A stretch of DNA of 64,000 nucleotides, from NCBI GenBank assembly GCA_964020085.1, contig OZ026604.1, positions 30,013,618-30,077,617 of the forward strand. Direction: 5' to 3'. Source of the DNA: Micromussa lordhowensis (taxonomy: Eukaryota; Cnidaria; Anthozoa; Scleractinia; Lobophylliidae). Positions within the stretch are counted from its first letter, which is position 1; each line of letters starts with the position of its first letter. A program made the translations under genes and the position numbers. The notes beneath the pieces were generated by a model that searched no databases, was not told the DNA's origin, and saw only the letters and a program-made list of their open reading frames with translations. Below are positions 4,421-21,217 of the stretch, in pieces.

Positions 4421-5423
4421 ATCTTCCAATGGATTCTATTTGACAGTATTGGACAACCCTCACTGTTTCCCTTTGGGTCAGTCTTTAAAAGTGCTTAATA
4501 ATCTGTTCTATTATCCCTTGTTCTCTTTCTGTACTTTCTTTAGCAGAGTAGTACTCTATTCTCTCAGCGTACTCTTTTTTTACTTCTATTTGTTCACTCT
4601 CTTTTGTTTTTTGCGATCAATTTTAAGGTTTTACCCTTGGTGAATGCCAAAATTGAAAAAACATGAACCTTGTCACGAACGCATCTTTTCCATTGCAGGG
4701 TCCAGCAGCTAGATACATGCAAAACATTGAGTTGCAAAAGGAAGTGGATAAAACTGCACGAACCATGACGACCCGCAAGCCCTAGATACTTGTCGCTCGG
4801 TCATTTCAAATGACCGAACTTTGATCTCGACTAAAGGAAAGACAATAGAAGCTGGTGACAGATCTCTCGGCAAGAATCGCGTAAACGCTGTGGTAATTAA
4901 ACGCGTAATATCTCTCACACGTCAACGGTTTGGTAATCTGTGAAACCCGAACTGGGCGATTAATCCCAGCCATCTGTGCAATATAGATAACACGTCAACT
5001 TAAACAATCCCAACTCAGAGGAAAAGCGATTTCCGTGATAACATTTCAAAAAATTGTTTTCGTGCGGCCGGACCTTAGCGAAACCTGGCTGGTCCTGGTT
5101 AACTATCCCAATGACCTTTTAATCCTTTGGTTTTTGGCTTGGCGATTGGTACGCGTGATATCAAGTAATTTTCTACCACGCTAGTGTGGTTTACACATTT
5201 CCTTTGATTGTTCTGCTCGATATTATACGTGGAAAATATAGAAAAGTTAAAACGTCCATGATGCAAATCATTGAAACCGACTGTCCTGAAAGATTGAAAG
5301 TACCCTTCCCAGTGTAGCAGGTCGAAATGTCCAGCCTGATTTGGGTCGTAAATGCTTTGGAAAACCGCATTTCCGGTCACTCAATGCTGATGTAATCGGC
5401 TAAACAAAACCACCGCGGAAATG
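4421..5423. other. intergenic, no recognised feature
   Basis: Short frames on both strands lack splice context or recognisable domains. The stretch lies between satellite 3 and the zinc-finger gene and may include upstream regulatory DNA. Confidence 0.4.
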
Positions 5424-5431
5424 TATTTAAA
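5424..5431 (+). promoter_or_regulatory. TATA-like box of the zinc-finger gene
   Basis: TATTTAAA lies about 45 bases before the ATG at 5475, so any leader would be very short. This is a sequence match only. Confidence 0.3.
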
Positions 5432-5474
5432 CAGCTAGCAGATCAGGGTATCAAGGCTACTCGCTTATCAAACA

Positions 5475-6927
5475 ATGTCGGTTTATACGGTGGATTGCTT
5501 GTCCTGTAAAAAAGTATTCAAGACGCTCTACTCGTTGAGTAAACACATGAGGGAACGCCATGAAATCGAGAATGAATTGTTACCCGCGTTTAAAGACCAG
5601 GAAGGAAAAATGGCGAGTGTTCCAAAACCACGCGACCGACTGCCTCAGCAAATGTTGCAAGGATACAAGATGTGGATTGCCGGCCTGGTGGAAAGGATAA
5701 ACTCCACGTTTCATCCTCGTCTTCCAGGTAAACATTCTGCATACTGTAATTACTTTGTACTGTAAAACTAATGCTAATATCATGCATGGATTACTGCTTT
5801 GCTGTTAAACAGCAGAGAATATTCCTTGTGAGGGAATCGAAATGTATTTTTTCACCCGCGATTTCTCAAGCATCTTTCAGGTTTTGTTAGCGCAAGATTG
5901 TTGCGAAGTGCGAAAATGGCCTCAAGCTTTTAATTACCTATAACTCCTGTGAGGAGGTTTTAAATACTCGAGAAAACAACCCTTGTCAAAAAACAAAACT
6001 TTTATTTGAAATGATGGCTCCCGGAGGAGTCATTTCGAGGATGATCCAGCGGTGCACTGATGGTTTGTCTGAGACACAAGATGCAAACACAGGCACAAGT
6101 TCTCTTCATTTACTCTTAACTGTATCTCCCATAAGACAAGTTTGTTTATGCACCCGCCGTTTTCTTCTTATGTACACAGCATGGTACTGCTATGGAGAAA
6201 AAAAATAATTGATAGGCCATAGGAGAGTGATGAAAGGATAGGATTTGAGATATTTAATGTAATTCTTTGTCAAATGTACTACTGAACTGCTCTGAGTTAA
6301 GTAACAGAAATGAATAACCCTATCTGGGAACAGCAAGGTCACAACTAAGACATCACTGATTGCCCTGAACCCCTCACCCACAGGCAGTTATGCCAACATC
6401 CCTCTTATTTCCTGTCATTTAAGACATTTTCCTCTTTTCTAGGGAGATGGATTAAAATTGATTGCCATCAAGTACCAAAGGCATACTTTGAGTACCTTAT
6501 TGGGAGAATAAATGCTCAATTGAACTCTGTGCGAGAGGTGTGCCACAAAGCACAGCCCTGTTACCAAGCCTCTACAATGAAGCTTTCATATAAAATTTGG
6601 TGCCTGGACAAACTTTTGGATGCACTAGAGGAACAAAACTTGGCATCCCTAAACACAGAAGTGTTATTCTCGGGAAATGAGATGTGCGAAGAAGAGGAAG
6701 GAGAAGAAGGCTTGTCTGCGGAGGAAGAAATAAAGAGGGCAAAACAAAGGGTTTATGTTCCTGGACAAAAAATGAAAAGGCCCTCATCAAAGTCGTCATT
6801 AATTGTTGGGTATGGAGAGGGAAGAGCCACACGAGAAGTTGAACTTATATGGTGGCCAAACTTGTACACTCTAACTGAGCATGGCCAAATGGTCCTGAGA
6901 ATGTATATAGAAAAATGCAATTTTTAG
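5475..6927 (+). CDS. C2H2 zinc-finger protein, two exons
   Basis: Exons are 5475-5727 and 6443-6927, joined in phase (CCAG|GTAAAC donor, TTTTCTAG acceptor), giving 245 aa. The N-terminus has one C2H2 finger of the form C-x2-C-x12-H-x4-H (CLSCKKVF...HMRERH, about residues 9-30). Exon 2 has no domain I can name. It carries a helical Leu/Lys-rich part, an acidic run (EMCEEEEGEEG) and a basic segment (GQKMKRPSSK), and ends in YIEKCNF. Both exons and the splice sites look intact. The gene is convergent with the RAG1-like gene: its stop lies only 258 bp from that gene's stop on the other strand. A role in DNA binding is inferred from the finger alone. It could be a host gene or a companion ORF of a mobile element. 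Confidence 0.72.
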
Positions 6928-7185
6928 TAATATCATAACATGTGCAGTTCCTAAAAATATCTCATATCCACTGTTAGATGGTCAATTGGAAATTCTGAGA
7001 GGGAGAGGGTTGAAAAGGTAAAAATTGTAACTAAATATATATACAAACTTCAACTCAAAATTTCTGGAGGGACTGAGGGTTCAAACCAAAGAAACCTAAT
7101 TTGTGGATATTATGGATATTTTCTGGAATCACACAATGATCAATATAAATATAATTTAGATACACCCAATGCTGTACACTGACCT

Positions 7186-8834
7186 CTACTTTTTCCATTG
7201 AACAATAAGAGCCATTAACTCTTTCCTCAAACAGGCCATGTTCGTGAATGTCCACTGAAATGACAGAAGGCAGTTTCTGCTTTTTATGATATCTCTCACG
7301 GAGAGAATCACACCAACACCACAGCTCGCAGATCCCTCTCCAGTTCTAGTTTGATGCGGCATGTTGAAGCATGGTAAAGGGAGATCTAGTTTGGGTTGGT
7401 TCCAATTTTCCTCTTGGAAACTGTTATTGTGGGAGAGAAGCTCAAAACCAGTTAGCATGTTCTTAACAACCACTAGAATGTCTCTTGGCTGGTAAATCTT
7501 GAGTCCATCATCAAAATAAACAGTTCTATTTTCTACATCGAAGCACAGTAATCCCCAGTGTTGTGGTGAATCAAAATGAAAAGGTGACAAAATGTATGTG
7601 GCATCTTGCACAGCACAGTGGCCAAAGAAGGGCATCACCATTTGGCTGAAGTACCGTGGTCCTTGTTTTGCCCAGGTTTGGCTGTACGATGAGAGGTACA
7701 CTAGGTTAGTGGGCTTGCTGTCCTCGAGAAATTTCAAACATACTGTGTCTATAGTGAAACCATTCACATAGCGTTCACAAGCTAGAGTGCTAAAGTCAGT
7801 AGCATCCATAATGCACGTGCCTTGTCTAATAACCTCCTCATTAGGCCTAGAATTCCACAGTACATCTCTGACTTTGGTAAGGTCTGAAACAGAGCTGCTG
7901 TTGTTTGCAAGCCACCTTTCTTCTTCTCTGAAACTGACAGCTTCTGAAGCTAGACTACACATAGTCTGATATAGACCAACTGATTCTTTAGTGAAAGTTC
8001 CTAGTCTGCCCATAGTCACTGTAGCTTTGTCATCTTCATCCCCATCATCAGGTCTGTCAACAGTAATAGTCCCCACAGTTCTAGTACCTGACAGTTCTTT
8101 CAAAAGCTGTACAGCATGTGTCACTGCACTTTCTGCTGGACGAAGATTGACTAGTAGTGGGTCACTGACCTCATTTGGGCTCTGAACAAGCTTAATATCT
8201 TGCTTTGAGATGAAGACAACTTCAGGAAGTTTCAAACATGCTCTTTCCCCACGAGTAAGAACATTGAGATTTTCAAAAATCTCTTTACTTTGGGCTACAT
8301 CATCAGCTTTTAATTGGTCTAAGTGGCAGCTGTTGTTACTGTTCTGCAGAATTGATGTTGCCATTGCTGTGGCTGTGCACTTGCTGCTGCTTTGCTGCTG
8401 TGTAGTTGCCTCTGCTGTAGTTACTGGTGCCACTGGGGTAGTGTTGCTGCCATGCTGCTGTGTTGATAACTCTGCTGCTTTTTTTGGCATGTGTCTGGCT
8501 GTGCTGCTGTCATCCTGTTGTGATGATGCTGTCTCTTGTGCTGGTGCCACTCCAGGAGTGTTGCTGCTTTGGTGTTGTGGTTCCGTGCCTGGTTTGCCGC
8601 CACTTTGTTTAAAATTTGTTTCCCACTCTTCGTGGTTGTAATCTATGAGTGGAAATTGGCCAGGTACCACCACACAGTGCTTTGTCATCTCTGTATACTC
8701 ATATTCACAATAATCTGGACCAAACAGATTAGTAAATAGCTCGTCCATTTTTCCAATCCATTTTCTATCTTCTTCACTCCAAGCCATTCTTTTAGCTTTC
8801 CAGCCACACCCTCTGTAGTAGAACAGCTTCTCTC
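7186..8834 (-). CDS. exon 14: Ulp1/SENP-like C48 cysteine protease domain
   Basis: This terminal exon encodes residues 919-1467. After FYYRGCGWKAK comes a low-complexity linker rich in Gln, Ser, Thr and Ala (about 1005-1085), then the protease. Triad residues are in place: His in SPQHWGLLCFDV, Asp in VYFDDGL and Cys in GSASCGVGVIL. In Ulp1/SENP enzymes this fold cleaves SUMO or a related modifier from Lys. The usual oxyanion Gln lies somewhat further upstream (PHQTRTG), so the exact loop is unusual. Proteases of this fold occur in some transposons (for example Kaonashi-type MULEs), but I do not know of one on a RAG1-like core. Confidence 0.8.
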
Positions 8835-11800
8835 CTGAACGAATAAAGTTAATAAAGTAAAGAATTTGCATACTTTTAATTGCATTTTTTCGATGTAAAG
8901 AAAGGAATTTTCTGTTATCAGGTCTTGGGGTTGACACTTTTCATCAAGACAATTTAAGACAAGATTTTTATCATCAATGCCTGTTTGAAGGTATGACTGA
9001 CTCCTTGGGAGGTCTCCTTTAAGACTAGCCTATCTCTAGACAATCATGTATATTACCAGTTGTAATGGACTGTCTAGCCTCTCTGAATGCTCGCCTCATA
9101 TCAAGTAGCATCTCTGTGTAAACATGGGTGAGGATTTGGTCCACTATAGCATAGGAAAAAAGCACAATTATTAATAATAATTTTTAATCTTGCTACTTCA
9201 ACATCATTTGTGTGAAAATTTACACAGGAATCTCAAATTACCTGAGGAAGTACTGCTTGATGAGTCGTGAGAGGTTGCTCTTAAGTACAGCAGCCTTTGG
9301 AGCTTGTGTCCAGCCTCGTAACCCTGGTTGGACAAGTGGTGTAATGAGCGATGCATCCGAAAAAGCATTGGTACATGCTCCACAGTGAGGTGGCCATAAT
9401 CACCTGTACCAAGGCTTGTTCCAAACATCTCTAACAGAAGGAACCCCCACTCCTTACACTGAAAAATTGAACATTACAGTCAACAACAAAGTCTGTAGGA
9501 ATTGGTTCACTAAGGAGAGATACACTTTCTTACAAAGTTTGCATGTCACATGCAGTAAAGGAAAATCTGATACAGTATTTGTCATTAGCATAGTGATACA
9601 GTTAGAGAGAGCTACAGCAACATTAGTCCTGGCTATTGAAAGGGCATAACAAGCTTCATTACCACAAGGAATTTGAGCCCAATGTATGGAATTATTTTTT
9701 TGCGATTGAAATCCAATTTCTCCTCGAATATTACAGCCAAAGATCCAAAACCTTTGAACACAAATTACTAAGTTTCACAAGCTCTTGAAACATTTGTACA
9801 GTACTAGTCAATCCATGTACTATGCATAATTCCCTCACACAAAGGTGTCTGTTAAGGAGGATGCACATGTGTGCACATGTTCTGCGCATCACACAAAGCA
9901 TGGTTTAACTTGTCTAGTACATGAATTATAAGTATTTTAAAGTGGTCAATCTTCAATCAAAAGAATAGGTATCACAAACCTTAACATCAAAAATATCAAT
10001 GAGATGTTCCTCATCTTCCTTGAACTCTTTATCCCTCATAACATATGCAATTTCTTTCCACAGTGAACACACCTGCAATTAGTATAATATTATAAGGGTT
10101 CAAAGTTAAAAGGCAGGCCCTGAAAGTATTGTGAAGTGAAAAAGCCTGCATTTAGTTAACATTGTGATAGAGATTTGGAAATATTATTATACCAAAATTA
10201 TTTTAAATTTCTGATGAGTACTTCATAATGATTACTATTTAAATACTCTTTTTTGTATAGTGTAATTTGCAGTACATTAAAAATTAATCAGTGAACAGAA
10301 ATTAAATGCAATAAGCCTAACCTTGATTAAAAATTCCTTTGTCAATGAGCCTGCATAGTAACTTAGTTCGATGTTGGTCTGATCCACTTTCTTTGACTTC
10401 TTCCTCTTATCTTTTTGGCCTTTTTTTGACTGCATAGGCCTGTAGAGTTGTTTGAATTGCATTTCAACATCTTGCTGTTTTTCTTTCCACTGGGTCATCT
10501 GCAATTCAAGCTCCTTGCTTACAGCTGTATATATAATAGCAAAAATAAATCATTTCAAATAGGTCCTATTTAAACACAGGCAACTGCAATATCCAGCATT
10601 CTATTGCATCCATGTAGCTGAATTCAAGCAGGTGAATATGTCAGTTTACATATATTACCAACTTTAATGACCAAAGGGAATAGGAATAATGGTTCATATA
10701 CAAAAAGTGTGACATGTGAAAGGTTATAAATTAAAAAAAGTATAACCCATTGTAATACCTGAATTTGGCAAGTAAATTTCTTCTAGTCTGGTGCCAAAAT
10801 CACGGACAAAAATCCCACTTTCCATCATTTCCTGATAGTACTACAAGATAAAAGATAAAAAAAGCTTCAGGCAAATCCACCGCAGAATAAAAGGGCAAAG
10901 GTTGATCTTTCATTTCTATTCTCTAGCCACACAATAGCAGCCCTGAGAGCGACACCACATGGCTCTTTGCGTCCCCAGTGAAACAATAAAATGATGGAAG
11001 AGATCTGTGTCCATTTCATCCACGACATAATGACCATTGAAATTGGCTTGGTAACCTTGTCATGTTGGCAGACCAAGATTCACAGGGGTACTATACCACA
11101 ATTCGTCAACCAACTTTATTGTAACACCTGGAGTCCCCTCATGTCAAATCTACAATGCAGCATTGTCTCAAGCACACAATCAAAACTGCACAGCATCGTG
11201 TTTACAAAAATTCAAAATAAAAATCGTGCAAAATGTGTTGTACATTCGACCAGTAACAACACCCAGATATATGATTGTGATTGTCATTTTACCATTTAAT
11301 GTTTATTTTGTCAGGTTAAAGAAATAATGTACAGGAGATCACAACAGAACAAAGAGGACATAATGGCACCTTTTGTCGTGTCTCACAAAATGCAATTTTG
11401 TTAAGGATGCAGAGTTTGGCCGCCTCGGGGTCCTGGAAATGGTCAGCTAGTTTTTTATTAGGAAGAGACTCTTCCACGATTTCTTCAATAGATGCCAATA
11501 GCTGCCGTTCAGTGTTTCCTGAAAACATGATTAGAAAGATTGTGTCTATTTGTACTTGAAATATTTACAAAACAGCCCTGTTTACAGGAGACCTCATCTA
11601 TACAACCACATATTTATCAAAGCCATTCCACTCGGGGCAAATACATGTATGCATTTTGAAGGAGAGACAGGTAACCAGAAAACAAATCTTGAGTAGCATG
11701 TCATGTCACAGAACAGGTATTTCCTTTGCAAATTCAGTACCAAAATACAGTATTAATTACATACAAATTACATGTACAAAGTGATTAGGTTATTGTACTG

Positions 11801-14800
11801 GTCTTACACAAAGCAGCCATGAAAGCTGACTCTCCCCTAAGAATAGGGCTGTTTGTTCATACAGGCAAATTTGTTTTTATATCATTAAAATATTTTATTT
11901 TGCTCTCATTGTGTGTTACTCTACAGTACCTTTCCCTGTACTATTCCATATCCTGTGAAAGTATTACATCGAACTGTATGAGGCGTGTCACCCGCCAGTT
12001 CTGATGGACTAAACATTAAGCTGCGTGATTATTTCTTTTGCGTTACATCGAACTGTATGAGGCGTGTCACCCGCCAGTTCTGATGGACAAAACATTTCAT
12101 TAGTATTGCTAATAGATTATCTATTTCATATTCATGTTACATCAAACTGTATGAGGCGTGTCACCCGCCAGTTTTGATGGACAAAACATTTCATTATTAT
12201 GGCTGATAGATCAACTATTTCATATTCATGTTACATCAAACTGTATGAGGCGTGTCACCCGCCAGTTTTGATGGACAAAATATTTCATTAGTATAGCTGA
12301 TAGATTAACTATTTCATATTCATGTTACATCAAACTGTATGAGGCGTGTCACCCACCAGTTTTGATGGACAAAATATTTCATTAGTATGGCTGATAGATC
12401 AACTATTTCATATTCATGTTACATCAAACTGTATGAGGCGTGTCACCCGCCAGTTTTGATGGACAAAATATTTCATTAGTATGGCTGATAGATCAACTAT
12501 TTCATATTCTTGTTACATCAAACTGTATGAGGCGTGTCACCCGCCAGTTTTGATGGACAAAACATTTCATTACTATGGCTGATAGATCAACTATTTCATA
12601 TTTCATATGAATATTCACCAATATTTACTTCGCCTTCGGCGAATAATTGTTAAATAACTATTCCTAATTATAATAGAAATTATGATTTTAGGGTAACCTG
12701 AACAGGAGGCAAAAGACACATTATTTCGTCCGGGAGCTGTTCCTTGTCCAGGTCTTAACTTCACAGTGATCCTATCTGCCTTGAAGTTGGCTGGACCATA
12801 ATCAGAAAGTTTGGCATTGCATTCTGGAAGTGAGCCAATCTCATAGGCCAGCAAACCAACACTTTTCAGCAGTTGCTCACTGTTTCTCATCTCACAGTGC
12901 AAAGCACAAAGACTCATGGTAGAAAGGTCCTCATCAAGGAGGCATGTTAAATCATCTCGCAACCCTTTAAATCTATAAAATAGTTCATTGAGGATTAATT
13001 AAATGAAGGTATACCTATGGTGGTGCCCGTCAGGTAAAAAACAAATGACATCAAGCAGAAATATCCAGCCATATGACACATTTTTTCTACTGAACAAATT
13101 GTTTATTTACGACCATTAACTAACTATATATTATAAATCATTAAGGATGTTTTTAATTAGTTGTTCATGGTTATACTACAATGGTTAAATAAGAAATACT
13201 GACAATGATATCAGCAGGACCATCTGAATACATCCTGTGATTTATTTCGCACACATTTTCTAATATACATTTATTACATTACCCGCCAATGTTTGCCTTT
13301 GTTTGACTGAAGTGTTCCAGACAGACTTCATGCATCCCTAAATCACAATCACATGCCTATTACAGCAAAAATAATATTAAGAATGGATACATCTATTTTA
13401 TTTTGCTTCAAAAAGTCAATAAATGAGGGGACCAGTCAAACAGTCACTGGAGGACCACCAAAAAATATTGTGCAAAATGTTGTATTTGTGTTAGCTGGAC
13501 ATCATTTAGCTCTTATTAATTGAGCAGCAGGTCTGTATGGGAGAATCCTGACCGAGGTCGTAAGTACAAACCGAATGCACCGAGGTCAAGATGATCCTAC
13601 ATAGACCAACTTAACTCGGTTAATAAGATGTTTAATATATGGCAAAAACAAGAACAATTAAATTTGTTTAATTTAACTGGTTTGTACTAACTGACATTCT
13701 GCTTGCAAACAGCGATCAGCCTAATGTGTTGCAACTCAATATCTCACGAGTGAGCGGTGCTCACTCGTGAGATATCAAGTGGAACACTCAAAGATAAAAT
13801 TCATATCCACGCGCAGGCATGTAATATCCTCTATTTACAGTATGATGGCTCAATTCTGCTTTCAAATGAGCCCTATACTACCCTTTTAAGTATGAACATT
13901 GAAACATTACCTGGTAAAACTAGAACAGTTTCAAAAGATATCTAGGCACATTCTTATATTTGGACATTTCAAACTTAAATGTACAATCAAAAAACTTACT
14001 CTCAGTGCCAGGCAGAAAATGCAGAACTCTAGAGCAAGGCCTTGTCCACCAAGCTGAAAATCCTCATCGTCGATCTTTGCCATCAGGAGCACCAAACCTT
14101 TGTAATCAAGGGTAACTGTATACAAAACAAATTGACTCAGTTTAATAACTGAGCAGTTTTCAATGCAGTCTATAAATACAGTAATTGATTTTGCATTACT
14201 GTGCAGGTTGATTAGAAATAGTTTAAATTTTATAACACCAACGACTAACTGTGGCTTGCTTGAAGGTATTTTCATGCCTGATTAATTTATATCAAGTTCT
14301 GATTACAGTGTAGTTCTCAGAGTTGTTTGCTTCTATTAATTGCAGATTGGCAGAAGTTATTCCTTTGGTTTTGCTAGCTTTGGCAACATTAGACACCTAG
14401 TGCTATTCAGTATGCCTCTATATGCACTGTCTTGGTTACTACAATGCAGTTGTTAATGTAAAAATTATCACTTTCAAGTTAAAAAGCTAAGAAAAAATTG
14501 TTCGGAAGGAAAAGTATATTTTTAATGTGCATAAATAAGTGTCCCCAATTACTGAACTAATAATGATTAATAAAGGAATTTTAATTTTTTTTTCAGATCC
14601 AGTACCCTTAAAGCGTATACGATAGTGTTTGCCATCCACTTTAATCCCCATCTTTTTTAGCTTGTCCTTCTGCTTGTTTAAATTTAAGAACAGCTTCCTG
14701 AGTTCTTCCCTTGAAAATGCAAGATATACAAATAATAATAGGCTAACGTATAGGTGAAGATTCACAATCATTAATAGCCCTCCAACTTATAGTCTTAATT

Positions 14801-17251
14801 AAAGATGGTTAGTTTAAAATAATCTTTGAAACAGAAGTTTGTGTAGTCAACATGATCTCCCAAATACTATTCACCAACTGCCAGCAACTTAATGCACACA
14901 AACATTCTAATGACAAATTCACTCATAATAAATTATTGGTTTCATACCCTTTTATTGAAATTTGGGTTTTTATTGTCTGCTTTCCACATCATTGCAACTA
15001 TAGCAAGTAGCATATAAGAGGATTATAAGATTTGAAACAGATCAAAGTCGTCCATCCTCATTGCCAATAAGGGTCAACTACTAAGCCCGAACAATATACT
15101 GTCAAAATGTTATTATTAATTTTTTTCAAAATTATGCACAGCAAGATAATTAAAATAGCTTAAATGTGGTTCTTCCCTGCAGTGGAAAGGTGTAAATTAC
15201 CTCTTTTCCTTACAGTTGGCAATAGCCAGAGGATAAACTGATTTTGCACTCTGAGAGGACCGATGTTTAGCATCAAGGGGAACAATCCCAACTGCAACTT
15301 GATCTTTGCCTGTAATATAATAGAATGTATAAGATGATGATCCATGCAGCCATTATTAGTTTTAGAAAGATTGACATGTTCTTTTTAATGAAAGCAAAAT
15401 AATTTAAAATAGCCATTCAGTTACCAAAGAAAGGGCGTCCATCAACTTTAAGATTGAAAACAATATCATCAGGAAGTGAGCCATGTAGACGCATCTCTCT
15501 GATGATCCAGACAGTCACATTTTCCAGGTTCACCTCATAACCTGGAACTTCATCAGGCAGACTTGCCACATCCACCAATGTTCTTGTGACATTGAATAGA
15601 CCCTTTCGCAATGCAGCAATGTTGTTTTTAATAGGGATGATGGGTTCATCTGATTTTTTCTAGAAAAATTAGTATTTGTACCAAATACAAATGTCAAAAA
15701 TTACTATTAAAATATCTGATTTCCAACACAAATATCAAATTATAACGACAGGACTAGCTCTGGCTGTCCTCCATGGAAAGGTGTTTGCCCATCAATTAAA
15801 ATGATACAAGTGAACTTAAACCAGGCTGGGGCCAGCTAACTAAATAAACTACATTATACAGGTGTCCAGCATCATTGCATAAAAGGTGTGTTCGATTAAC
15901 TTAAAATTTGGTACGAGCCCATTAGCAATGTCAGGTTTGGACCAATCATATATGCAAAGAAAAAACCTCTAAAAGGAATCAAATAGTTAAGATATCATTG
16001 ACGTCACCTATTGTTATTAATATGCAAACCAGAGAACTATTGGCTGGTGAAACAAATAATTCTTTTGTTTAACGTTTTGAACATTTAATAACAAAAACAA
16101 TGTTTGTAAACAAATATCTTCCCTATAGTCAAAGGCAATTATTAACATGGAAAAAGCACAAAAGTATTTAATCCACTATTCCTTGAGTTTTAATCAGCTT
16201 ACATCATGAAAAAACTTTACTCAAGCCTCTAGCTACTTACCCCAGTTCTTCCAAGTTTAGTCAGATTAGTCAAGTCTTGCCAACTACTGTCAGACAGTCG
16301 TGACTTGAGCTTGAACAGCAGGTAAATCCAGTCAGGGACCCTCATACACTCGACTCTTTTGTCCCAAACTTCTTCGGACAAAAGCTTTCTGAAAGACTTT
16401 TGGACGCCCTTTTCTTTGGCCATCACATCAAATACGGCCCTGACTGTCTCCTGGGCATCGCTACCATCTTTCCCTGTCATGAGACAGCATTCTCCGAGCA
16501 CAGCGCCCAGCGTATCCCCGCTTTCTTCGCACACTTGGCTGATGCTTTTCATAATTGCGGTTGCAGCCTCTCTCACTTTTCTTCTTTTGCTGGGTGGGGA
16601 GAGGTCATGGTCAACTTTTAGCTGCTCGATGGACCTTTTCTTCTTCGGAGCTGGTTTGGCCAAAGCATCCGGACTTTGCACTATTGGCGGGCTTTCACAA
16701 TTTGGCGGGCTTTCACGATTTGGCGGGCTTCTTCCTTCGGGCAGTCTTGGTGTGCTTGGTGGTGTCGGAATATCAATGCCTTCGTGCTTTCTAGGCTCGG
16801 AATCTATAAACACCCCTTCCTGGCTTTGCATTTGGGCCAATTTTCCGCTCTCGTCCTCAAGAGAATTGCAGTGTAAGCCACGGGAATTGATCGAAGATAC
16901 GACCGCTTTGAAGTAATCAGAGTTCATGAAATGGCAACTCGTCCACGATTTCAATCGCAGAATTCCGAGTAGAAGGCCGAAGGCTGACGCCACATAAACT
17001 TTTTCGCTGCTTCGATGCGAGCAAAACCAGCGGAAAGACGCGGCGGTTCCATCTTTGCCGCGCAAATTCTCTAGGACTACTTGCTTGTATTCTTCGGTAA
17101 ATGTTTGCGCAGACACTGTAGAACAAAAAACGGATGGTTTTGAAGAGCACAAATTCGAATTCAAGGCGTACCAGTTCTTCTCTGGGTCTAACTGAGACGA
17201 AAACACTTGATGTAACAGCAATGAGCTTGCAGTCGCGTCTGTGCTCGCCAT
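7186..17251 (-). CDS. RAG1/Transib-like protein fused to a Ulp1 protease, 14 exons
   Basis: Exons (minus strand, 5' to 3'): 17251-16241, 15659-15425, 15309-15201, 14709-14606, 14115-14000, 13356-13283, 12972-12698, 11518-11370, 10840-10759, 10524-10322, 10072-9980, 9458-9242, 9143-9057, 8834-7186. All junctions are GT-AG and in phase; the joined frame is 4404 nt (1467 aa) without a stop. Order of parts: a Pro/Ser-rich N-terminus; an RNase H-like core with Asp in LKVDGRPF (410) and TLDYKG (490), CxxC at 518-521 with His 534 and 540, ALHCEMRNSEQ (573-583) and GYEAGHKLQR with Glu 865; a Gln/Thr-rich linker; and a C48 protease (His1344, Asp1360 or 1361, Cys1423). The core motifs resemble RAG1 in order and wording. 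The function is unknown. Many introns and intact active sites suggest a retained gene, but I saw no terminal repeats either way. Confidence 0.8.
9242..9458 (-). CDS. exon 12: candidate catalytic Glu of the RAG1-like core
   Basis: The exon encodes a block reading YGHLTVEHVPM, FRMHRSLHHLSNQG, then GYEAGHKLQR and LRATSHD. The pattern G-x-E-[AS]-G-[HN]-K-L-x-R matches the RAG1 segment around its third active-site residue (GNESGNKLFR). The Glu is residue 865 of the spliced protein. Splice sites are TTTTTCAG at the acceptor and TCAG|GTAATT at the donor. Confidence 0.65.
11963..12606. repeat. 94-bp tandem array, seven units, each with a stem-loop
   Basis: TTACATCRAACTGTATGAGG starts units at 11963, 12043, 12137, 12231, 12325, 12419 and 12513. 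The last six are exactly 94 bp apart. Each unit contains a potential hairpin with outer arms around AACTG and CAGTT and an inner GGCG/CGCC. The array lies in intron 7 of the RAG1-like gene. Confidence 0.9.
12698..15659 (-). CDS. exons 2-7: RNase H-like core and zinc module
   Basis: These six short exons carry the first half of the candidate DDE core. Exon 2 ends in LKVDGRPF, and exon 3 continues with QVAVGIVPL and VYPLAIANCKEK, which looks like successive beta strands. Exons 4-5 join across YRIRFK|VTLDYKG, giving the second Asp. Exon 5 ends with CIFC and exon 6 opens with ACDCDLGMHEVCLEHF, making a C-C-H-H set. Exon 7 holds ALHCEMRNSEQLLKSVG and a later AYEIG. RAG1 has a matching order: a DG motif, FRGTGYDEK, CTLC with two His, and ALHCDIGNAAEF. 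The comparison is from memory and by eye. Confidence 0.65.
13739..13775. repeat. perfect hairpin with 17-bp arms
   Basis: ATATCTCACGAGTGAGC is followed by a 3-base loop and its exact reverse complement. It lies in intron 5 of the RAG1-like gene and is probably a tiny foldback (MITE-like) element. Confidence 0.8.
16241..17251 (-). CDS. exon 1 of the RAG1-like/Ulp1 gene
   Basis: I start at the ATG at 17251 (MASTDATASS); an in-frame GTG lies 15 bases upstream, with no ATG visible there. The exon codes for 337 aa and ends GGG|GTAAGT. It begins with a compact region of hydrophobic and Cys residues. A Pro/Ser/Glu linker with a repeated NRESPPNCESPP motif follows, then a basic stretch (APKKKRS) that could be a nuclear localisation signal. 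Last is a helical region ending in a tryptophan-containing LFKLKSRLSDSSW segment. No RING or known N-terminal RAG1 domain is visible. Confidence 0.7.
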
Positions 17252-17709
17252 GCTTGCAGCGTCCACGGACCGAATATCTGTCGAGGCATCGAGCTAACTT
17301 TGTATATGGTTTTGAAAAGGGCGCCATGGGTTATAATAATTCCATATAAAGCTTAATCCAATTATGTCCTTTGTGTTCAGGTTTTAACTACGGGCAATCT
17401 ACGGGCAATTTTTCGTGTTTACACTTAGCCAATCTCTGGCCAGCGGTCACTCGTTTCCGCTGACCAATATTGCGAAGTACGCGCGTGTGACAGGAAGGGA
17501 CGGGTTGCGGGTGACGCCCGGGCGCAAATTATACATTGGTGACCAAAATATCTTGGGCTGCACCGTCACGCAATTAAAAATGTAATTCGAAAACCATTCA
17601 GTGAGTAAACTCAATAAATTATAATGTTATAGGAGATGAATAATTAAGACACTTCGCCAGTTTTAGGTCTGTACATTTTACCGATCTTCAAATATTTGTC
17701 GAAATATTT

Positions 17710-17748
<39 letters not shown>

Positions 17749-18706
17749 CTCTAGGGGACACCAACATGGCGGCTGGAAAATAGTGTAAACATCTGGAACT
17801 TACTTTGGCTATCTGGGCCGCTGATTATCTGAACTGACCAAGCAAACAGAAATAAGCACTTTTCCTAATACATGAACTTCTAAAAAGGCTGAAAGTCCCA
17901 AGATAAGTTAGTATATACTTTTCAAAAACAAGTTCATAGCTTTACGATCACCCACCGCCGTGACTTTGAAATAAATAACAAATATGGTAAGTATTTCCAA
18001 ATTATACAATAATTTTATTGTCGCTCGTCGTCTGCCGGCCACCTCCGTACATTTTCCACATCTTTTTTTTTCTCATCTTCCACATTAAAAAGAAAAGAAA
18101 AAAAATAATTAAAAAATAAAACAAATGTAAATTTTTGGAACATTGTCACTTGTGTCATTTCTTTTTTTCTGCATTATTTTAGTTTCTTTATTCCTTTATT
18201 TAGGTCATTAATGATATATTTAGAACAGAAACTCTCTGCATACAACAGGTAGGAGAGAGAGCTTAATGTAATAAATATTATTATTATTATTAATATTGTC
18301 ATCATCATCGTCTTTATCATTTACATTATCATCATTATCATTAGTGACAATTTATTTGACATCAACAATTTTCAGGTGCAAAGGCCTTTCGGTTATTACT
18401 TATAATTATATATTGGTTGTTCTTGAGGGCTAGACAGACAACTCTTCGTTAATCAAGCCAAAACACTTCAGAAAACGAAAAACGACACGAACTTCTCTTA
18501 AAAAAACAACAACAACTGCTAGCCCTAAACCGTCAAATCTACCCGCGATAATGCTACGGGCAACTTAAATTAAAAATGTTTCTGAGCGCGAGCTATTTCC
18601 GCATCACGCCACTTCTGTAGCTGTAACTGTCTTCTCAACAGTGCTTTTACAATACTGGTTTTAGAAAATAATAGTCTTAATATTAAGGAATACACTGTGA
18701 TGCAAA
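17252..18706. other. intergenic between RAG1-like gene and kinase gene
   Basis: This should contain the promoter of the minus-strand RAG1-like gene just above 17251. A short inverted repeat (AGCCGCCATGTT ... AACATGGCGGCT) lies near 17738-17775. The rest is AT-rich, with simple ATT/ATC runs near 18280-18350. No gene is recognised. Confidence 0.5.
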
Positions 18707-20017
18707 TCAAAGGTGAATAGCAGCAATTGTAGTCAGTAATTGGTCCAGATCAGCTCTATCGGAAGGAGCTTCCATTGTTGCAGATTTTACTACAACTCGA
18801 ACACTGTGATAAAATCCCATGACTTTAGACACAGCCTTCAGCATTCGTCCCAAAGAGTATACGTCACTGGATGTACTGTACTGTCGGTATTTTAATACCT
18901 CCGGAGCCAAATAGCTTTTCCCGTGTTCATGCGCTCTCTTTCTGTTAGCGAAAGGTGGAAAACTGACAGAAGCTTTCCTACTCTTGCCGAAATCGATGAG
19001 GATAGGAGTGCATCTATTGGAATCTGCTCTGCGTTCGAGGACAACATTATTAGCTTTGATATCGTTGTGGAGGAAACCTCTTGAATGGACATGCTTCAAT
19101 GCAGAGCAAATCTCAACAAAGATATCAAGACATTCTGGACATGTGATGATGTTCGAGATCGCCGCATGATGAAGAGTGCTACTTGTGCCATTTATACCAT
19201 GGAACTGTGTGACGAGACAAAGTGGCTCTTGTGTTGTGACGACACCTACAATCATAGGTAGTCTTTCATGGTCACCAAGTGCAGTGATCACCTCTGCCTC
19301 GTGAATTAAATCCCTTTTGGCCCTTAGCTTGTCCTCTGTTGTATCGCTGTAAATCATCTTCTTTACGACTACGTCAATTCCCCTGTAACGGGCAGAATAG
19401 CACTGACCGTAGCTTCCACTGCCAATTCTTTCTTGATTCAAATAATCGATATGTTGGGGATTTAGTTCTTTTAGTTCTAATTTCGTCTCCTTCACAACAA
19501 GCTGTTTCTTGACTTTCGGTATTGTGGGCCTTGACGGACAAGGCAATACTTGTTGTATTTGAACGTGACTGGAGACCGGCTCAGATACGTCCTTGTCAGC
19601 TTTGTGTACAATGTGTGGAGTTTTGGGTCGTTTAAACTGAGAGGTACTCTTCACCGACTTTCTGCGGGACTTCTCTTGAGCCAGGCGCAACATCAACGCG
19701 CTTCTCGAGTGCCAAGATTCCGTTTTCGTGGGAACATTTTTCGTATTTTTCAATTCTGAGTTAACCACCTGTGAAATACTTCGATTCGGCACAATTCGAG
19801 AGGATGAAGCTGCCTTCTGTTGAGCGACTACAGGAGTTTCCTCGTGGTTATGTGGAATCACATGATCTCCTTGAGTCGAAGGTGATTTAACCTTTGCCTT
19901 TTTGGCCTCGCGCTTTCTCTTTTTCCACTCCCTTCGGTTTTTTCGTTTTTCTTCTGTCGTATGCTCGCGCGATTTAACTATTCGTTTTTCCCGTTGAAAG
20001 CGGTCTGCAGTGTCCAT
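18707..20017 (-). CDS. single-exon protein kinase
   Basis: The reading frame is 436 aa from the ATG at 20017, chosen for its GCTATGG context; an upstream in-frame ATG at 20092 would add 25 residues. The N-terminal 190 aa are basic and low-complexity (KRKNRREWKKRKREAKKAK), probably nucleolar or nuclear targeting. The C-terminal kinase domain has all the key motifs: GSGSYG glycine loop (199-204), VVVKKM with the ATP-binding Lys, HNDIKANN catalytic loop (Asp319), DFGKS (Asp342) and APEVL (371). The catalytic loop reads HND, where most kinases read HRD. The domain ends early, about 60 residues after APE, so the C-lobe is short. Family assignment below Ser/Thr or tyrosine-like kinase is not possible here. 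The lack of introns among intron-rich neighbours suggests a retrogene or an invertebrate expansion. Confidence 0.85.
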   Translation of the reverse strand: MDTADRFQREKRIVKSREHTTEEKRKNRREWKKRKREAKKAKVKSPSTQGDHVIPHNHEETPVVAQQKAASSSRIVPNRSISQVVNSELKNTKNVPTKTESWHSRSALMLRLAQEKSRRKSVKSTSQFKRPKTPHIVHKADKDVSEPVSSHVQIQQVLPCPSRPTIPKVKKQLVVKETKLELKELNPQHIDYLNQERIGSGSYGQCYSARYRGIDVVVKKMIYSDTTEDKLRAKRDLIHEAEVITALGDHERLPMIVGVVTTQEPLCLVTQFHGINGTSSTLHHAAISNIITCPECLDIFVEICSALKHVHSRGFLHNDIKANNVVLERRADSNRCTPILIDFGKSRKASVSFPPFANRKRAHEHGKSYLAPEVLKYRQYSTSSDVYSLGRMLKAVSKVMGFYHSVRVVVKSATMEAPSDRADLDQLLTTIAAIHL

Positions 20018-20092
20018 AGCTAAACAGATGCTAGCTACTGCTGAGTAATGACATCTCCAGATATGGTATGAGACAAGAGAGACAAGAGACAA

Positions 20093-21217
20093 CTTTTAAT
20101 ATTACATTTTTGTACATAATACAGTACTGACAGACCTGGCACCGCAGGTAGCGGAAGAAAATCGAGGCGGGCCAGGAAGAAATGCATGCGTACTCGTCGT
20201 TAGTCACGTTTCTAAGCAATGAATAATTTCACAAGATATTTATTGTTCTCGCGCTTTTTATTTGCGGGTAAGAATTACAGATCTAGAGATCAAGACAATT
20301 ACAGAGGTCAGAACATTTGAATGTTTGTTATTGCCGGCTCCGAGATACACGTTGAAAGTCTTAAGTAACCATGTCTTTTGCTAAGGCGCCTTGAAAAACG
20401 TTTTACGATCGCACGCAAGTTCATTGTTAGCTGCGAAACTCTTATAAGCAAGCAAGAAGTGAAAAGAGAGTTACTTAGTGTTGCCGCCAAATACATGCAC
20501 TTTTTAGACTGCTGGCAGTCTGTTTTTCTCTCGCAACCGCGCGCTAAACACTCGTCCGCGAGACCTTCGTAGAAAGAAAGCCGTGCAATCTAACATGCAC
20601 CGTGTGTTTTGTTGTTTGTCGGCTGTCACTTTATTACTAGTAGCCGAAAGAGTCCCGGTGGGAAAATGAATGCCGAACTCTCAAGGGAACTCAAGAATAT
20701 TTCGAAATAGGGGAAGTCCGAAGTAACTGATATTATATCACTGAATAACAAATCCAATAGATATGGTTTTGAAATAATATGGGGAATTCGTAATGGGGTC
20801 AGACAGTAGAAGCAAGCCGTGCATATTAATACTGGAACTCAATGTTAATTGAAAATCTGTTTCAACTCCGATTTTTAAAGTGTCAATTTTTCGAACATTG
20901 GCCGGCTTGTTCTCGTTTCAATTCGCAAAGCGCTTCGCAAAATTATTGTTAAATAAAATAGAGAAGCGTGCACTTCAATGAGTCGATTGTTTTTCCTTTG
21001 TATCCTACGACATCCATATGCTCTGGCTTCTATCGCCGCGCGAGTCAGAAACTTCAAGCGCCGGATGTATATTTTTGGCTCAAACCAAAGCGTTGACACT
21101 GGCCATCAAGATCAAATTTTCCCTACGCTCTATGATTGGCTTAACGAGGAAATCAATTAATTAGATTTTGAAATACTTAATTTGATCAATGTTAGCGTCT
21201 GTAGCAACGATGGCTTC
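20093..21217. other. no recognised gene
   Basis: Upstream of the kinase, this would hold its promoter. Several short frames are present without splice support. Confidence 0.35.

Follow-up and report, generated by a model that had tools for sequence, protein, structure and literature searches.

A multi-copy DNA transposon of Micromussa lordhowensis that encodes a transposase with a RAG1-like core and a predicted Ulp1/SENP-type protease domain

Here we analyze a stretch of 64,000 nucleotides from the scleractinian Micromussa lordhowensis (contig OZ026604.1, positions 30,013,618 to 30,077,617), referred to below as the window. A gene on its minus strand encodes a transposase in which a RAG1-like core is joined to a predicted protease for the small ubiquitin-like modifier (SUMO), of the Ulp1/SENP type. 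We will show that this gene belongs to a multi-copy DNA transposon of ca 16-19 kb and is not a host gene, because copies share sharp ends in different flanks. The element has short inverted ends, CATG at these ends, and three genes, namely the transposase-Ulp1 gene with its intact reading frame, a convergent C2H2 zinc finger gene, and a protein kinase gene.

The transposase gene and its element

The transposase gene runs from an ATG at 17251 to a stop codon at 7186, and its 14 exons, separated by 13 GT-AG introns, form a single frame of 1467 amino acids plus the stop (Table 1). The preliminary description of this DNA had proposed 14 in-phase exons and 1467 codons, which the re-derived GT-AG model confirms. 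The coordinates given there, 7186 to 17251, are right for the transposase gene but not for the whole feature, which reaches from about 4764 to 20890. At 12 of the 13 exon junctions, between 5 and 12 homologous proteins, out of the 9 to 14 that extend to the junction in question, align without a gap. The last junction is gapped in 8/8 homologues, and where GCGW follows, the offset is about one residue by eye. A 15-exon model (1474 amino acids) was dropped, since the homologues join the ITTG region straight to FYYRGCGW. A number of the homologue searches and RAG1 comparisons and the selection counts reported below were made with this 15-exon protein or its exons, which is identical up to residue 918 and numbered seven higher thereafter. 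The last exon carries the GCGW block, which is also present in two homologues without an Ulp1 domain (P0002 and P0005), together with the protease. The protease is therefore not a separate gene, an alternative that the preliminary description had raised and that is ruled out by the sharing of exon 14.

A 501-base probe from the end of the gene has 16 matches in the 581-Mb assembly, five of them at 99-100% identity. The exon with the ALHC motif, taken as protein, matches at least 34 genomic places (counted by hand, with 70 of 700 candidates scored), a number that may include haplotype duplicates on unplaced contigs. The window copy and two sister copies, C580 and C7, begin at the identical base (4764) in three different flanks, with the imperfect terminal inverted repeat CATGACGACCCGCAAG. 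At the right side, C7 and another copy, C323b, extend 206 bp past the window copy and terminate in ATGAGGAGCC. A search for inverted repeats inside the window alone gave no terminal inverted repeat, because the window copy lacks the right end; the ends were instead obtained by comparing copies. Of the two options in the preliminary description, a transposon or a host gene derived from one, the transposon fits these near-identical copies with their shared sharp ends, and the host gene is disfavored by the multiple copies in different flanks.

There is also a second lineage of the element (copies C2, C10 and C13), in which the last part of the protease is 52% identical over 160 amino acids. Its terminal inverted repeat of 15 bp, ATGAGGAACCGCAAG, marks the upstream end in all three copies and the downstream end in C2 and C13, that of C10 not having been reached. 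Considering both lineages, CAT is followed by G at 5/5 downstream ends and ATG is preceded by C at four of the five upstream ends (A in C323b), so that CATG stands on both sides in each of C2, C13 and C7, the three copies whose two ends are both visible. Outside CATG, a 2-base repeat (AG) occurs only in C2 among these three. The flanking CATG can be a 4-bp target site duplication or part of CA..TG ends. The length of the element is ca 16.3 kb in the window lineage (with the missing 206 bp added), 17.6 kb in C2, and 18.8 kb in C7, which has insertions.

As to the coding capacity of the copies, the exons are shared over the readable parts. C7 has all exons, no exon indels, and no stop other than the terminal one. 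C580 is without exons 1-3, where its contig ends, and has two replacement changes; in C323b, four bases are inserted into exon 6, and a further copy, C323a, starts at exon 8, both C323 stretches being partly masked. By alignment coordinates, C580 also has a 5.3-kb insertion inside exon 11 (window 9989-10004) with a 16-bp repeat at its borders, possibly a retroelement. Because some copies are about 97-99.7% identical, fairly recent activity of the element is plausible, and hence so is an assay.

The core and the C-terminal domain

D410 (in DG), D490 (in LDYK), C518 and C521, H575 of ALHC, H840 and H845, and E865 were all found at the positions given for them in the preliminary description. The two histidines named there along with CxxC need a correction: the pair that corresponds to the zinc ligands of RAG1 is the one in GHLTVEH (840/845), and the pair in HEVCLEH, beside CxxC, is not conserved in P0002 and P0005. 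E865 lies exactly 20 positions after the last histidine, as it does in mouse RAG1. In the alignment of homologues, D410 is present in 12 of the 13 rows with a residue there (P0005 has Q), D490, C518 and C521 in 15/15 rows, H575 in 13/13 rows with a residue there, and H840, H845 and E865, with H-x4-H spacing, in each of the nine rows that reach them. In an excerpt of PMC12730594, the signature of the CACTA-Mirage-Chapaev-Transib-RAG1 (CMCT) clade is described as D, D and E, with C(2)C, one more H, and H(3-4)H lying between the second D and E. The core carries all of these residues, and the element has the 5'-CA..TG-3' termini typical of most CMCT lineages, whose target site duplications span 2-5 bp.

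The motif order was also said to follow that of RAG1, and this is borne out by an ungapped comparison of all 28-residue windows of residues 395-960 with the RAG1 core of mouse. The top three separate diagonals (838-338, 450-66 and 570-193) are collinear; taken singly, the first is significant against shuffles (1/1500) and the other two are not (85/1500 and 102/1500). The best three-window chain scores 90.9, a value reached by 0/2000 shuffles (mean 49.2, sd 6.6, maximum 77.9). Reversed RAG1 gives 52.7, and seven other real sequences give 35.7-47.0, that is, the non-core part of RAG1 from four proteins (37.7-47.0), a kinase (46.7), a TNP-like fragment (35.7), and the C-terminus of P0002 (42.4). 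A 38-residue ungapped profile of the H-H-E region scores 52.3 on RAG1 compared with 33.3 for the best shuffle (n=20000), and the profile of the E region places RAG1 above 2000/2000 shuffles, by a small margin. The hidden Markov model of the family gives E 2.6e-6 against a single RAG1 core (one target). Of seven E-region fragments scanned one by one, two are matched by the Pfam RAG1 family, PF12940 (E 0.018 and 0.020), at profile positions 558-621, which is the expected place. The curated cut-off of PF12940, 25 bits, is not reached, the best score being 13.6 (the control, P0094, gives 1255.7).

Judging from these residues and scores, it is likely that the core shares descent within the CMCT clade. 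A special closeness to RAG1/Transib is not shown by the comparison, in which the core was set against RAG1 sequences, and CACTA, Chapaev and Transib were considered by description. Membership in Transib is not supported: the ends read CATGAGG and CATGACG, a 5-bp duplication is seen in 0/3 copies with both ends, and the RAG1 profile stays below its cut-off. The Pfam transposase and integrase profiles for KDZ/Zisupton, Ginger, hAT and Mutator matched neither the scanned exons of the window nor the 14 homologues, the only TNP-like hit lying in an additional N-terminal part of P0003. A KDZ/Zisupton identity was rejected, there being no profile match.

The C-terminal domain had been described as a protease of the Ulp1/SENP type with intact His, Asp and Cys, and the motif together with the match of P0001 to yeast Ulp1 (1euv, E 5.5e-5) supports this. 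The window domain alone matches Ulp1 with E 0.0017 over the His-Asp half. In the window, H1344, D1360, Q1413 and C1423 stand in the C48 order, H-D-(Q)-C, with Q1413 and C1423 presumably catalytic, as assigned by motif. The four residues are kept in the window, P0001, P0004, and the C2/C10/C13 lineage. The reading of the protein as a RAG1-like core joined to a domain of the Ulp1 type is supported.

With residues 330-960 as query, five proteins are found at E up to 0.001 among 8000 candidates scored, and a profile search gives 12 proteins at E up to 0.01, which makes 14 different proteins from both searches. All 11 of known source are anthozoan (Actinostola, Exaiptasia, Oculina, Acropora and Paramuricea). 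The annotations of P0001 (Actinostola) and P0004 (Exaiptasia) each give a single protein from the core through the protease, the gene model of P0004 being without the exon of the first Asp. P0002 and P0005 form one group in the core tree (88/90, not starred) and have, in place of Ulp1, a common alternative domain at the C-terminus that has Cys, His and Asp motifs (NTCPIDN..., QHY...W..YDG). For P0002 it has no match in Pfam or the PDB; it is perhaps another cysteine peptidase, with a likeness to ubiquitin-specific proteases (USP) read by eye only. In P0003 (Actinostola), the annotation puts an RNase H domain of the TNP-like kind (PF21787, E 2.7e-13) and the core into one protein, perhaps because two elements were fused in the gene model.

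Between the window and C7 there are 19 silent and 26 replacement changes (dS 0.020, dN 0.0075). Within residues 1-932 of the 15-exon model, 14 changes are silent and 14 are replacements, with P 8e-4 vs neutrality (binomial on site numbers). This first part of the protein is under purifying selection, and for the protease the sign of such selection lies only in the residues conserved across lineages.

Other genes and features of the element

The second gene, called ORF2, is placed between the left end and the stop codon of the transposase, on the opposite strand. It encodes a single C2H2 finger (zf-C2H2_6, E 2.4e-4 and 1.1e-4, below gathering), and its exon B is present at 98% identity in C7, C580 and C323a. 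A counterpart of RAG2L was not seen: there is no kelch match in the open reading frames (ORFs) scanned, some small ones being left out, and PHD appears at chance level only (E 0.22, exon 1). The kinase gene is also present in C7, where it is frameshifted near its end. In the second lineage, a kinase 27-28% identical over ca 470 residues is encoded downstream of the transposase, whereas the kinase of the window and C7 lies upstream, suggesting that the gene moved within the element or was captured repeatedly, i.e., twice.

No copy of the subterminal palindrome was seen within 500 bp of the opposite end in either C7 or C2. The 94-bp unit of the minisatellite in intron 7 contains TATGAGGCGTG, which has a faint likeness to the terminal repeat.

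Table 1. Features of the element in the window (positions counted from the first letter of the window).
Feature	Position	Strand	Remarks
Left end, downstream of transposase; imperfect terminal inverted repeat	4764..4779	+	copy comparison
Subterminal palindrome GGTCATTTCAAATGACC	4799..4815		same distance from end and nearly same sequence in C2
ORF2 exon A, C2H2 zinc finger, convergent with transposase	5475..5727	+	53% identity over 88 aa to C2-lineage ORF2; splice sites match by eye
ORF2 exon B (ORF2 total 245 aa)	6443..6927	+	53% identity over 184 aa to second lineage, E 3e-67
Transposase exon 14	7186..8834	-	RGCGW block, linker, Ulp1/SENP-type domain with H1344, D1360, Q1413, C1423
Transposase exon 13	9057..9143	-	gene model
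Transposase exon 12	9242..9458	-	H840-x4-H845 and E865 (GHLTVEH...GYEAGHKLQR)
Transposase exon 11	9980..10072	-	gene model
Transposase exon 10	10322..10524	-	gene model
Transposase exon 9	10759..10840	-	gene model
Transposase exon 8	11370..11518	-	gene model
94-bp tandem repeat, 6 copies, intron 7	12042..12602		also in C7, C580 and C323b copies
Transposase exon 7	12698..12972	-	ALHCEMRN (H575)
Transposase exon 6	13283..13356	-	gene model
Transposase exon 5	14000..14115	-	D490 (TLDYK), C518-x2-C521
Transposase exon 4	14606..14709	-	gene model
Transposase exon 3	15201..15309	-	gene model
Transposase exon 2	15425..15659	-	contains D410 (VDGRPF)
Transposase exon 1	16241..17251	-	N-terminal part common to homologues
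Single-exon protein kinase gene, 436 aa	18707..20017	-	Pkinase E 8.5e-30; upstream of transposase
Last match of window copy to sister copies; right inverted repeat absent	20880..20890		comparison with C7 and C323b

Explanations and relation to known systems

We now turn to the interpretation that we favor and regard as quite probable, namely that the window holds a right-truncated copy of an autonomous cut-and-paste DNA transposon of anthozoan cnidarians, which has a RAG1-type transposase-Ulp1, inserts at CATG, and makes use of its SUMO-type protease locally. The transposase would bind the inverted ends, perhaps with the help of the ORF2 zinc finger protein at the subterminal palindrome. Cutting would be carried out by a RAG1-type RNase H site made up of D410, D490 and E865 and held by a putative zinc site of C518, C521, H840 and H845, and insertion would take place at CATG. 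In animals, SUMO conjugation contributes to the silencing of transposons and to repair, and for this reason the simplest benefit would be to take SUMO off the transposase or to remove it at the element. The protease domain may act locally, most likely by stripping SUMO or a relative of it from the transposase or from silencing or repair proteins at the element, and the kinase may likewise act on host factors.

It is important to point out that a number of observations weigh against this picture. The hhalign comparisons with RAG1 are weak (P 0.0025, 0.051 and 0.0067, the probabilities not exceeding 12%), a search of the PDB with the family profiles brings up neither a RAG1 nor a Transib chain, and the D-region and Zn-region profiles alone are not above shuffles. 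The profile check proposed in the preliminary description was accordingly weak or empty on the side of RAG1, and no other named transposase family of Pfam matched the core instead. In the Pfam scan of fragments, the window's own E-region fragment has no RAG1 match, and unrelated families do equally well or better on single fragments (Med15_N 0.0013, RVT_N 0.017, Nmad5 7.4e-4). The chains with four other vertebrate RAG1 cores score 87.7, 81.3, 76.7 and 76.5, the last two just under the highest mouse shuffle. For the protease, Pfam C48 reaches 18.5-19.1 bits in homologues, below the gathering value of 20.7, and does not match the window exon; between the window and C7, this last exon has 5 silent and 12 replacement changes, so that purifying selection is not significant there (P 0.28). 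Finally, C13 is flanked downstream by another piece of the element (99.9% identical), and its site is therefore not an ordinary one; nesting, duplication or an assembly effect is possible there.

The likeness to RAG1 could instead have come about by convergence or by chance at a generic RNase H/zinc site. The profile-profile scores are indeed weak, and the P values are shuffle-based, with a window length chosen by the analyst and motifs known in advance. However, the scan of all windows returned the three motif blocks in order, and reversed RAG1, RAG1 non-core, a kinase, a TNP-like fragment and the C-terminus of P0002 all give ordinary chain scores, and we therefore consider this explanation improbable. 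Even less credible is that a host gene was domesticated from a transposon of this type. The intact frame of 1467 amino acids, the many introns, and the missing right inverted repeat of the window copy would agree with it, but near-identical copies in several places with different flanks, and a mobile architecture common to a second lineage, speak the other way.

A quite different standing is held by the possibility that the core is of the CACTA-Mirage-Chapaev (CMC) type (CACTA, Chapaev, Plavaka or other), sharing the 2C-3H-DDE signature of the whole clade with RAG1 and having no special closeness to RAG1/Transib, and that the Ulp1 fusion is another case of CACTA-ULP1. We give it an even chance, and it would refine the right-truncated transposon described above rather than exclude it. 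The termini of PlavakaB are CATCA..TGATG, CACTA-ULP1 is known from grapevine and rice (PMC2528002, in excerpt), and the CACTA, Chapaev and Transib cores were outside the sequence comparison made. On the other side, RAG1 is the sole named Pfam transposase or recombinase family that matches the core, weakly and in two of eight fragments; this is a thin argument, as the HMMER filters drop most weak matches. A more tentative proposal, which we rate as possible and rather doubtful, is that the element represents an undescribed lineage and near sister of RAG1/Transib, having a RAG-like plan with a C2H2 partner instead of RAG2, insertion at CATG, and an exchangeable protease for ubiquitin-like modifiers plus a kinase.

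The element shares with RAG1, Transib and TransibSU the order DG, D, CxxC, ALHC, H-x4-H, E. It differs from them in its termini, which are not heptamer-like as the Transib ends are (CACWRTG), in the missing 5-bp target site duplication (0/3 copies), in its C2H2 partner with no RAG2L found, and in the C-terminal protease-type domain. The Transib ends are said to resemble recombination signal sequences in an excerpt of PMC4411706, and the second gene convergent with the transposase recalls the RAG1L-RAG2L arrangement (PMC7204232). With Ulp1/SENP (peptidase C48) the domain has H, D, Q and C in order in common, and it differs in being divergent, with a Pfam score below gathering. CACTA/EnSpm elements, for their part, have CACTA ends. 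Those of Vitis and rice are likewise CMC-clade elements, of 10-25 kb, that encode an Ulp1 domain; unlike the present one, they occur in plants, have a Tnp2-type transposase and, in several families, a 3-bp target site duplication (PMC2528002, same excerpt), and no Pfam CACTA hit is obtained here. Ginger1, according to an excerpt of PMC2836005, is an animal transposase with a C-terminal protease for ubiquitin-like proteins, Ulp1 or OTU but not both, which parallels the Ulp1 or another domain found here, but its core is a DDE of the Gypsy-integrase type, and no integrase match is found here.

Ulp1-bearing transposases have thus already been published for Mutator, Ginger1 and CACTA (excerpts of PMC2836005 and PMC2528002). 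The statement in the preliminary description that no described protein has both domains must be narrowed in view of the related combinations in CACTA-ULP1 and Ginger1-Ulp1, and it stands insofar as none was found with a core so RAG1-like. Among the literature matches listed, seen in part and covering few subscription journals and not Repbase, there is no description of an Ulp1-bearing transposase with a RAG1-like core, a convergent zinc finger gene and a kinase.

RAG1 descends from transposases, and relatives that lie outside Transib/RAGL and have a partner gene in convergent orientation would be of use in ordering the steps by which this plan arose. If the near-sister relationship were true, the element would offer an independent out-group for how RAG gained its partner and its regulation. 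Because the Ulp1-type domain is swapped for another in a sister clade, the family can serve as a natural experiment on the question of why enzymes that take off SUMO or ubiquitin have been acquired by transposases again and again.

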